Origin: Morganella psychrotolerans
GTDB taxonomy: Bacteria > Pseudomonadota > Gammaproteobacteria > Enterobacterales > Enterobacteriaceae
Assembly: GCF_001676055.1 (NCBI RefSeq)
Contig: NZ_LZEX01000009.1
Span: forward strand, 1 to 64,000
DNA length: 64,000 nucleotides
Direction of reading: 5' to 3'
In this document: positions 50,466 through 53,043 of the stretch, piece after piece
How positions within the stretch are numbered: the stretch's first letter is position 1
How the letters are laid out: each line of letters starts with the position of its first letter
Made by a program: the position numbers and the translations under genes
Notes under the pieces: generated by a model
The model's input: only the letters and a program-made list of their open reading frames with translations
What the model was told of the DNA's origin: nothing
The model's database searches: none

Positions 50466-51386
50466 GTGATCACAAGTGAAACCCTCGCATTACTCGAAGA
50501 AATGGCAGTATTTGCCAAAGTGGTTGAGACCGGCAGCTTTTCTGAAGCCGCCCGGCAACTGGGGGCAACCCCTTCTGCTATCAGCCGCTCGGTTTCCCGT
50601 CTTGAACGTGCGCTCAATACCCGCCTGTTACAGCGCACAACCCGTAAGCTGCGTTTGAATGAAAGTGGTAAAGCGGTTTATCAGCATTGTCAGGCGCTGG
50701 TCAATTCTGCGGGTGCAGTGATGAATGCCAGCGGGCAGTTCAGTGAAACGCCCTCCGGGCTGGTGCGTATGGGTGCGCCGAAAGCACTGGGGTATTTTAT
50801 GGTGCATCCGCTTATCAATGAGTTCCTTAATGCTAATCCCGGGGTGAATGTAATGTTGCGCCTCGAAGATCGCTATATGGATTTGATTGATGAAGAGATC
50901 GATCTTGCTATCCGCATCACCAATGAGCCGCCGCCGGGACTTATCGGCAAGCGGCTATTTGCTGTCAGTCATATTTTATGCGCCACACCGCAATATCTTG
51001 CTGAGCACGGAGTGCCGTCTCATCCGCAGGAGCTGAAAAATCACAGTTGTTTATTTTTGAGCGAGGAAGCAACAGATACCCGCTGGCGTTTTCAGCAGGG
51101 AAATAAAGTGGTGTCTGTGAATGTACACGGGCGTTATGCGTCTAATCACAGCGGGGTGCGACTCGATGGTGTGAAATCACACCTTGGTATCGGCGGGCTT
51201 CCGGTATTTACTGCCCGTAAATCACTGGAAAAGGGTGAGGTGGTTCAGGTGCTGGCAGACTGGACATTTAAAACACGTTACAGCGGGGATGCCTGGCTGC
51301 TTTATCCGCCTTCGCGCTATCAGCCGCCACACATGATGGTATTTATTGATTATCTGGTACAAAAATTACGGGAAATTGCCGTTTGA
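50466..51386 (+). CDS. LysR-family transcriptional regulator
   Basis: 306 residues from a GTG start with AAGGA 10-14 bases upstream. HTH: FAKVVETGSFSEAARQLGAT, PSAISRSVSRLERAL, NTRLLQRTTRKLRL. The effector domain has GLVRMGAPKALGYFMVHPLI, DRYMDLIDEEIDLAIRI and GIGGLPVFTARKSLEKGEVV. It is divergent from alaX-exporter (about 100 bases between the starts), so it probably controls that operon, with itself, as LysR proteins often do. The effector is unknown. A terminator follows the gene. Confidence 0.9.
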   Translation: MITSETLALLEEMAVFAKVVETGSFSEAARQLGATPSAISRSVSRLERALNTRLLQRTTRKLRLNESGKAVYQHCQALVNSAGAVMNASGQFSETPSGLVRMGAPKALGYFMVHPLINEFLNANPGVNVMLRLEDRYMDLIDEEIDLAIRITNEPPPGLIGKRLFAVSHILCATPQYLAEHGVPSHPQELKNHSCLFLSEEATDTRWRFQQGNKVVSVNVHGRYASNHSGVRLDGVKSHLGIGGLPVFTARKSLEKGEVVQVLADWTFKTRYSGDAWLLYPPSRYQPPHMMVFIDYLVQKLREIAV

Positions 51387-51413
51387 CTAAATAAAGGTAT
51401 AAATTGCAGACAT

Positions 51414-51442
51414 AAAAAAAGCGCCTTAGAGGCGCTTTTTTC
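51414..51442. terminator. Bidirectional terminator (copy 1 of the duplicated unit)
   Basis: AAAAAAAGCGCCTTAGAGGC then GCTTTTTT: stem GCGCC/GGCGC with A-tract before and T-tract after. It ends the LysR gene from the left and the first small-peptide gene from the right. Confidence 0.88.
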
Positions 51443-51455
51443 GTCAATCTGTAAC

Positions 51456-51533
51456 TCAGAATGCTTTGCTGTATTTAGCAATGATAGCAGCAGCACGGGT
51501 CAGATTTGAGAAGAAAGTTTTGATGCTTTTCAT
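51456..51533 (-). CDS. 25-residue cationic small protein, copy 1
   Basis: Not predicted by ordinary ORF length limits, but well supported: ATG preceded by CAGGAGTTCATT (AGGAG, 7-base spacing), a 25-codon frame beginning MKSIKTFFSNLTRAAA and ending IIAKYSKAF, then TGA and a terminator. The peptide is basic, with an amphipathic helix pattern (Lys/Arg on one face; Phe, Leu, Ala, Ile on the other), so it probably binds membranes or a protein partner. A promoter with TTGACC-N16-TAAGAT lies 55 bases upstream. The coding sequence is repeated 479 bases away. I do not recognise the family; a small regulatory membrane peptide or a type I toxin are candidates. Confidence 0.82.
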   Translation of the reverse strand: MKSIKTFFSNLTRAAAIIAKYSKAF

Positions 51534-51587
51534 AATGAACTCCTGCGTTTTAATTAGGTGTAAAGCGTGTTTCGCTTCGATGGAGGT

Positions 51588-51615
51588 ATCTTACCAGTTT
51601 TGTGATGCCGGTCAA
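51588..51615 (-). promoter_or_regulatory. Promoter and leader of small-protein copy 1
   Basis: On the minus strand TTGACC, 16 bases, TAAGAT. The transcript would begin a few bases later with a leader containing the hairpin AAGCG-AAACA-CGCTT before the ribosome binding site. The segment is identical in copy 2. Confidence 0.75.
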
Positions 51616-51892
51616 CATTAATTTCAACTATTTTTTAATGATTACAAAATCATTTTAATAACAAAAAAGCAGTGAAAAATAGCAATAATGAGCATCGCAA
51701 CCAGAGAGAAACAGTATGTTTCTGCTGATGTGTTTTTACTGAATTGATTTAGCAGTAATTTTTTATCTGCATGGAGATGTTGTAAATGTTGAATTTTGGT
51801 TGAGAGGCTGCGTTTTCGCTGCGTGGCGGGGATCGTTTACTGAGTCAGCCGGGCTTTCTTCAACTTTTGTTGAATGCCGGATTGCGGGCAAT

Positions 51893-51920
51893 AAAAAAGC
51901 GCCTTAAAGGCGCTTTTTTA
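51893..51920. terminator. Bidirectional terminator (copy 2 of the duplicated unit)
   Basis: AAAAAAGCGCCTTAAAGGC then GCTTTTTTA: stem GCGCC/GGCGC with T-tract. Nearly the same as the hairpin at 51414. Confidence 0.88.
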
Positions 51921-51934
51921 AATCTGTCTGATAA

Positions 51935-52012
51935 TCAGAATGCTTTGCTGTATTTAGCAATGATAGCAGCAGCATGGGTCAGGTGAGAAAAGAAAGATTT
52001 AATCATTTTCAT
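51935..52012 (-). CDS. 25-residue cationic small protein, copy 2
   Basis: Paralogue of the gene at 51456: same length, same ribosome binding site (AGGAGTTCATT), same last 12 residues (AAAIIAKYSKAF plus stop), but MKMIKSFFSHLTHAAA at the front, i.e. changes at five positions in the first 13, including Asn-to-His and Arg-to-His. The substitutions keep frame, length and hydrophobic pattern, which argues that the peptide itself is under selection. It has its own promoter and terminator. Lies between copy 1 and narI, on the same strand as the nar operon but downstream of its terminator. Confidence 0.82.
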   Translation of the reverse strand: MKMIKSFFSHLTHAAAIIAKYSKAF

Positions 52013-52068
52013 AATGAACTCCTGCGTTTGAATTTAGTTGAGTAAGCGTGTTTCGCTTCGATGGAGGT

Positions 52069-52096
52069 ATCTTACCAGTTTTGTGATGCCGGTCAA
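52069..52096 (-). promoter_or_regulatory. Promoter and leader of small-protein copy 2
   Basis: TTGACC-N16-TAAGAT on the minus strand, same leader hairpin (AAGCG/CGCTT) as copy 1. High conservation of promoter plus leader suggests regulation of both genes by the same signal. Confidence 0.75.
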
Positions 52097-52289
52097 CATT
52101 AATTTCAACTATTTTTTAATGATTACAAAATCATTTTAATAACAAAAAAGCAGTGAAAAATAGTAATTATGAGCATCACAACCGGAGGAAAACAGTATGT
52201 TTCTGCTGGTGTGTTTTTACTGAATTGATTTAGCAGTAATTTTTTTATCTGCACGGAGATGTTGTAAATGTTGAATTTTGGTTGTGAGC

Positions 52290-52316
52290 AAAAAAAAGGG
52301 TGGCATACGCCACCCG
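52290..52316 (-). terminator. Terminator of the nar operon
   Basis: GGGTGGC-ATAC-GCCACCC with the T-tract on the minus strand (eight A's on the plus strand), about 50 bases after the narI stop. Confidence 0.93.
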
Positions 52317-52365
52317 AAACTGTGCATTTAAAGGATGAGACTGTCGTTGTTTTATGGGTACTGCA

Positions 52366-53043
52366 TTAATGGCGGTTGCGCACTAACTGATAGCGGCGCG
52401 TAATATATTCAACCGGCGCACTCCAGATGTGCACCAGACGGCAGAACGGGAACAGAATAAACAAGGTCATACCGAGCACCAGGTGCATCCGGAAGATAAA
52501 GGCAACGCCCTCTAAGTGTGCGGCGGCATCCCCCTGAAACGTCACTACGGCCTGCGCCCAGCCGACCAATTTCATCATTTCGCTGCCGTCAGTGTGTTGG
52601 GCGGAGAACGGAATGGTCGCCAGACCCAGGATCACCTGAACCACCAGTAGTGACAGGATAAGGATATCGCCGGTTGAAGAGGTTGCACGCACGCGTGGGT
52701 TAGTCAGACGGCGTTTGAGCAGCAGACCACCACCCACCAGCGTCATCACACCACAGGTGCCGCCCGCGACCATTGCCAGCATCTGTTTTTGCCCCACCGT
52801 AATGAAGGGTTCGTACATCCAGTGCGGCGTCAGCATTCCGACGAAATGACCGAAGAAGATCCCGATTATCCCGAAATGGAACAGGTTGGATGCCAGATGC
52901 ATGCCTTTTTTACTGAGCATCTGGCTGGAACCCGCGCGCCAGCTGTACTGACCATAGTCATAGCGCAGCCAGCTGCCGACGATAAAGACAGTCCCTGCAA
53001 TGTACGGGAAAATATTAAAGAAAAACGTATTGAGGAAATTCAT
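52366..53043 (-). CDS. narI: Nitrate reductase A gamma subunit (cytochrome b)
   Basis: 225 residues, five membrane helices, matching Nar[61 protein letters not shown] with heme-ligand His residues, and [30 protein letters not shown]-type end ([16 protein letters not shown], then [14 protein letters not shown]). NarI takes electrons from quinol in the inner membrane through two b hemes to NarH. The gene overlaps narJ by four bases (ATGA). The usual gene order is kept, and a terminator follows. Confidence 0.97.

Follow-up and report, generated by a model that had tools for sequence, protein, structure and literature searches.

The two repeated units in the window, the 64,000-nucleotide stretch of DNA analysed here, are real, tandemly repeated genes for a positively charged helical peptide of 25 residues. 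This conclusion is based on a conserved reading frame, selection at the codon level, optimal codons, and a conserved promoter element and leader, so that the original prediction of genuine small proteins, easily missed in annotation, is well supported. Both units are complete and lie on the minus strand, which the proposal of two tandem 25-codon genes had left unstated, with narGHJI on one side and a LysR gene on the other. Each comprises a promoter, a short leader with a hairpin, an AGGAG ribosome binding site, 25 codons and a terminator-like hairpin (Table 1), and the ribosome site, TTGACC/TAAGAT promoter and leader hairpin that had been predicted are found at both. The spacing of the units is 479 bases when measured at the ORFs and 481 at the upstream side, in agreement with the expected period of about 479. 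The longest exact run common to both units is indeed 120 bases (51563–51682 and 52044–52163), but of the leader it takes in only the opening part, the remainder being the promoter and the AT-rich DNA upstream of it; hence the claimed identity of promoter and leader holds for the length of the run and not for the leader as a whole. Four residues (positions 3, 6, 10 and 13) distinguish the two peptides, not five as first counted.

Table 1. Positions of the elements of the two gene units in the window.
Feature	Coordinates	Strand	Basis
ORF, copy 1, 25 residues, MKSIKTFFSNLTRAAAIIAKYSKAF, stop TGA	51456..51533	-	family present in 6/6 Morganella genomes
ORF, copy 2, 25 residues, MKMIKSFFSHLTHAAAIIAKYSKAF, stop TGA	51935..52012	-	family present in 6/6 Morganella genomes
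Terminator-type hairpin 3' of copy 1, symmetrical	51415..51441	.	perfect hairpin, inverted-repeat reading
Terminator-type hairpin 3' of copy 2	51893..51919	.	perfect hairpin, inverted-repeat reading
Promoter, copy 1: TTGACC, 16 nt, TAAGAT, TG before -10	51588..51615	-	promoter scan and conservation
Promoter, copy 2: TTGACC, 16 nt, TAAGAT, TG before -10	52069..52096	-	promoter scan and conservation
CRP/FNR-like dyad TTGAC-N5-TCACA over -35 and spacer, copy 1	51601..51615	-	conservation; putative regulator
CRP/FNR-like dyad TTGAC-N5-TCACA, copy 2	52082..52096	-	conservation; putative regulator
Leader hairpin AAGCG-AAACA-CGCTT, copy 1	51563..51577	-	pairing in 16 aligned leaders
Leader hairpin, copy 2	52044..52058	-	pairing in 16 aligned leaders
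Ribosome binding site AGGAG, copy 1, six bases before ATG	51540..51544	-	sequence
Ribosome binding site AGGAG, copy 2	52019..52023	-	sequence
Conserved AT-rich block, copy 1	51616..51750	-	92.8% majority identity, 14 locus-1 copies, 6 genomes
Conserved AT-rich block, copy 2, end approximate	52097..52231	-	locus-1 alignment

The gene upstream of the pair is narI, on the same strand, to which the terminator scan assigns a terminator of its own (GGGTGGCGTATGCCACCC with a T run, 52315–52298). Downstream of copy 1 the LysR gene is convergent, and the hairpin between them could serve it as well. Both terminator-type hairpins are GC-rich and directly follow the stop codon, so that the predicted terminators are present, although neither appears in the output of the terminator scan of this region, probably because their T runs belong to the stem.

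Among the 13 distinct ORFs of the family, pN/pS is 0.30. Joined by a spanning tree, these ORFs show 20 synonymous and 18 nonsynonymous changes, against an expectation of 22% synonymous (P = 3.6e-5, an optimistic value since the copies are dependent through likely gene conversion). Zero indels fall inside the frame and several occur in the leader and the 3' region. At several codons the 26 aligned rows are free of synonymous change. Lack of related frames, or a broken frame, had been named as grounds against the original prediction; the frame is present in all six Morganella genomes sampled and carries no indel. Codon choice was scored with E. coli weights applied to Morganella, and on this scale the CAI is 0.67 for copy 1 and 0.73 for copy 2, above every one of the 45 long ORFs of the window (mean 0.289, maximum 0.449). 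These values are reached by 0.46% and 0.15%, respectively, of the 14274 windows of 25 codons in the same long ORFs, and by synonymous recoding in 3/5000 and 0/5000 trials. Over the 26 family rows the CAI, with E. coli weights, is 0.48–0.73.

The peptides carry a net charge of +4 or +5. Their hydrophobic moment is 0.41–0.54 in seven variants, with the peak at 100–105 degrees, and a moment as high is found in 4–46 of 5000 shuffled peptides. No membrane-spanning stretch was detected, the best 15-residue Kyte-Doolittle mean being 0.95–1.05. The peptides are thus cationic amphipathic helices without a spanning segment, which fits the suggestion of a small amphipathic membrane regulator, presumably located at the membrane.

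A search for further copies, as originally proposed, found the family in 6/6 Morganella genomes (G000 to G005, including M. morganii H1r, Mm1 and FAM24679 and M. psychrotolerans DSM 17886; G000, with 4.37 Mb in 46 contigs, is the genome of the window). Each has 3–5 genes (4, 5, 3, 4, 5 and 4 from G000 to G005), making 25 once a gene broken between two contig ends is counted singly, and these occupy two loci. Locus 1 lies between narI and the LysR gene in the window and in 5/5 other genomes, with 2 or 3 copies. Locus 2 has 1 or 2 copies, adjoined by a glycosyltransferase gene in 6/6 genomes and by a cytochrome b561 gene in 5/6. The exception is the genome of the window, in which the first 4 kb of contig C46 hold other genes in its place; the far side of locus 2 is occupied there by a different gene (L096:463-1239, MGKVIKLVLML...).

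Two further family genes of this genome lie at the start of contig C2. A copy on C46 with a lost stop and a 43-residue frame was considered as a separate gene and rejected. The C46 start, when reversed, matches the C2 start from the ATG over 164 bases (G000:C46:1-164, G000:C2:1-164; L096, L095), with mismatches at a few bases 3' of the ORF and one indel, and the loss of the stop looks like a contig-end error. The copy was taken as the C2-start gene, its ORF was excluded from the selection test, and its promoter represents that gene. Base for base, the ORF of copy 1 in the window equals that of a locus-2 gene elsewhere in this genome (L004:3-80), although the promoters differ; compared with its M. 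psychrotolerans counterpart it shows 6 differences. This points to gene conversion, a likely means by which the copies at the two loci would be kept alike.

A promoter scan gave 5 promoter-like sites, against a chance expectation of 2.7, so that the promoter calls rest on conservation in 25/25 copies: TTGAC and the spacing are kept in all 25, and the TG before the −10 in 24/25. Both halves of the dyad, TTGAC and TCACA, are invariant at fixed spacing in 25/25 promoters, with variable bases between them, and since the DNA further upstream differs between the loci this is unlikely to reflect mere recent copying. We take TTGA-N6-TCAC to be an FNR-like half-site joined to a CRP-like half-site. The wider motif, allowing ≤2 mismatches, has seven matches in the genome of the window, four of them at family genes (three exact, one with 2 mismatches); a backward control pattern has two. 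As the dyad is centred near −28, a regulator dimer bound there should block RNA polymerase. The most likely candidate is cAMP-CRP, and this identity is a guess, because the left half-site, TTGA, is in any case part of the −35 hexamer and has the sequence of an FNR half-site, not of a CRP one.

In the leader hairpin 97.4% of cells are paired across 16 aligned leaders. One of its five pairs changes from G-C to C-G in 3/16 sequences and the other four are invariant; the covariation score is equalled by 3/500 shuffles and the number of changed pairs by 293/500, and the support from covariation is modest. In copy 1 the hairpin would lie near the predicted 5' end of the transcript, at about 51581. 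From the hairpin to AGGAG the leader is variable and has indels, and AGGAG itself is present in 25/25 rows that reach the leader. Predicted folds leave AGGAG mostly paired (mean unpaired probability 0.30 over 25 leaders, against 0.26 with shuffled ORFs), and since the controls pair as much it is not specially sequestered.

The roughly 135 bases before the −35 at locus 1 are 92.8% conserved, compared with 60.8% further up, where the alignment mixes the unlike flanks of first and later locus-1 copies. This block carries the inverted repeat AATGATT-N4-AATCATT (51637–51654 in copy 1). Using blastn, the block was found at 12/12 locus-1 copies of the five other Morganella genomes and at 0/7 locus-2 sequences. 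A consensus RNA structure was rejected as unconvincing (z −1.25 and −2.19, the latter on the plus strand), as was, by eye, a coding role: a 17-residue frame present in several copies has no ribosome site, its conservation is not codon-like and its stop is lost once. ArcA, Fur and IHF boxes in the block were weighed and set aside. The block could be a binding site for a locus-1 regulator or the source of an RNA.

Using 1 to 3 peptide variants as queries, no match was obtained in Pfam, NCBIfam, PHROGs or PADLOC at E up to 1, or among PDB sequences at E up to 10, the short queries limiting sensitivity; plasmid records gave no match to the peptide genes. A family-level profile search of 295 genomes, a sample of a larger group, returned its four Morganella at E 1e-16 to 1e-17. 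In total 64 genomes fell under E 0.5, 60 of them non-Morganella, and the best of these (G169, E 0.001) has its match within an 83-residue frame. Ten regions with weak profile matches were inspected; one (L090) is the Providencia lead described below, three are YrbN-like and six look like chance. The YrbN-like frames (L082, L085 and L089, in three other genomes; E 0.21–0.35) are likely chance resemblances as well, YrbN differing in its net charge of −2, its CAI of 0.21 and its overlap with deaD. Matches in 19/55 genomes outside the genus, mostly to the terminator hairpin alone, were not counted as homologues. A pattern scan of genome contigs gave at least 119 stretches; the matches listed comprise 125 pattern matches with 81 frames of ≤45 residues, and by eye the real-looking frames among them are confined to Morganella and Providencia. 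Literature searches aimed at small proteins or RNAs of Morganella or Providencia gave no description of this gene. The available portion of PMC11188072 does not mention Morganella, and in that of PMC13227991, covering 35 M. morganii strains, the shortest hypothetical protein has 30 residues, so 25-codon genes would fall outside its set.

Outside Morganella the one credible candidate relative is a weakly similar 23-residue Providencia peptide, MKSIKEFFVNLQEVVELLSKRFM, conserved in P. rettgeri and P. alcalifaciens (L216:1501-1572, L180, L141), which we regard as a lead and not as proof. It resembles the Morganella peptide in its start (MKSIK-x-FF-x-NL), amphipathicity (moment 0.49), ribosome site and CAI of 0.59, and its TTGACTTTGATCAA (TTGAC-N4-ATCA) lies at the same distance from the −10 as the Morganella element. 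It differs in its net charge of +1, its C-terminal half and its neighbour genes; its terminator-like hairpin lies about 85 bases past the stop, whereas that of Morganella follows directly, and its leader, unlike that of Morganella, holds an extra GTGATCAAGATCAC. In the Providencia gene the promoter box is FNR-like and the leader palindrome CRP-like. The two peptides matched at E 0.29–0.32 in the initial profile search, and hhalign gave a probability of 94% for a pair picked after the fact. A 74%-identical relative occurs in one further genus (L219, E 1.9e-4), and by eye its leader contains GTGATCTGGATCAC.

Our preferred reading, held tentatively, is that the genes may encode a small protein, translated at a high level and subject to catabolite repression, which would lie flat against the inner membrane and adjust the activity of a membrane enzyme, in the manner of AzuC. 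A strong extended −10 promoter would drive a short monocistronic mRNA of about 170 nt from each unit. The dyad across the −35 and spacer would bind a dimeric regulator of the CRP/FNR family, most likely cAMP-CRP, which would shut the promoter at high cAMP and leave the gene on when preferred sugars are present. The 5' hairpin would stabilize the message, and optimal codons together with AGGAG would support high translation. On contact with lipid the peptide would fold into a single amphipathic helix whose lysines and arginine share one face, and rest on the cytoplasmic side of the inner membrane, where it could modulate a membrane-bound enzyme, perhaps a respiratory one. Several copies would raise the dosage, with gene conversion keeping them alike. 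A wider version, in which catabolite- or oxygen-controlled membrane-surface peptides tune respiratory enzymes throughout Morganella and a diverged branch under the same CRP/FNR-type control exists in Providencia, is rather unlikely; the respiratory part of it is suggested by the adjoining gene for the cytochrome b subunit of nitrate reductase and by cytochrome b561 in 5/6 genomes. The regulator can be tested directly, given the copy number, the clean units and the invariant operator-like element.

The short transcript with its T-run end could instead act mainly as an RNA that base-pairs in the Hfq-dependent fashion, AzuCR and VcdRP being examples, and the peptide would then be secondary. CRP repression recurs among such RNAs (described in PMC8672173), and the codons lacking synonymous change would suit this reading; but the frame is under codon-level selection, and the variable, indel-bearing part of the leader offers no conserved seed that stands out, so that we consider a dual-function RNA unlikely. 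It is quite improbable that the peptide is secreted or released to act on the membranes of other cells, like a phenol-soluble modulin or a leaderless bacteriocin: a cationic amphipathic helix, tandem and dispersed copies and the signs of high expression would suit such a role, but among the close flanking genes (narI, LysR, glycosyltransferase and cytochrome b561) there is none for transport, immunity or maturation. An attenuator leader peptide, or a non-coding repeat with a chance frame, is hardly credible. A terminator-type hairpin does stand directly past a short ORF, but the gene after copy 1 is convergent, leaving no co-directional gene to attenuate, and codon-level selection and optimal codons speak against a chance frame.

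The original prediction also likened the peptides to type I toxins, and an Ldr/Ibs-like array with an antisense RNA made from the conserved upstream block would be the corresponding reading. The E. coli ldr/rdl locus has three units with a 535-base period (about 500) and that of Morganella is about 480; ibsA-B are likewise repeated short genes, in units of about 330 bases. The conserved block at locus 1, its weak plus-strand structure signal and the mostly paired AGGAG could be read in the same sense, but locus 2 gave no match to the block, which hence cannot be a general antitoxin, and AGGAG pairs no more than with shuffled ORFs. No antisense promoter was found by scanning the plus strand at 51000–52700 or locus L043, an absence that is no evidence since the same scan misses the known rdl and sib promoters. 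In M. morganii FAM24679 one weak antisense promoter-like site (9/12), which counts for this reading, was listed at the upstream block belonging to the third copy of locus 1 (L045:2108-2136). A membrane-associated type I toxin is described in PMC8309996 as a small hydrophobic peptide with a predicted transmembrane helix, and in each Ldr/Ibs unit a hydrophobic, low-CAI peptide is accompanied by an antisense RNA gene. The best 15-residue hydropathy is 2.41–2.88 for LdrA-C, TisB and IbsA-B, against 0.95/1.05 for the Morganella peptides; six K-12 type I toxins have net charges of +1/+2, against +4/+5, and the K-12 toxins a CAI of 0.12–0.39 (E. coli weights), against 0.67/0.73. The likeness to type I toxins therefore fits badly, and we consider such an array very improbable. 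The available text of a TADB-based M. morganii survey (PMC13227991) lists only types II, IV and VII, and such genes would hardly be visible to it. Overall, an abundant membrane-surface regulator is more likely than a toxin.

The preferred reading finds its closest parallel in AzuC of E. coli K-12, which is likewise short and cationic (28 residues, net +6). The azuCR gene is similarly built, with one short transcript, a short leader and a terminator directly past the stop, and the sequence anatomy of the Morganella units shows the same combination of short cationic peptide, predicted short transcript of its own and terminator past the stop. By eye, two CRP-like sites lie upstream of the azuCR start. 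AzuC is described as CRP-repressed and acting on GlpD (PMC8672173), and as only peripherally attached to the membrane (PMC7549839). It differs in its lower hydrophobic moment (0.27), its CAI of 0.40 and its neighbour genes; BLASTP gave no alignment at E up to 100, and hhalign a probability of 1.8% over 7 residues. Since homology was not found, we do not file the Morganella peptide as a member of the AzuC family; at most it works like AzuC. VcdRP of Vibrio cholerae, compared here from its description and not its sequence, is similar as a small-protein transcript under CRP repression: its RNA is reported to have 306 nt and a distinct 3' portion for base pairing, and its 29-residue peptide to act on citrate synthase (PMC8672173). 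If our reading is correct, the Morganella genes would add a multicopy, highly translated small protein to this emerging theme of short transcripts, controlled by CRP, whose peptides adjust metabolism.
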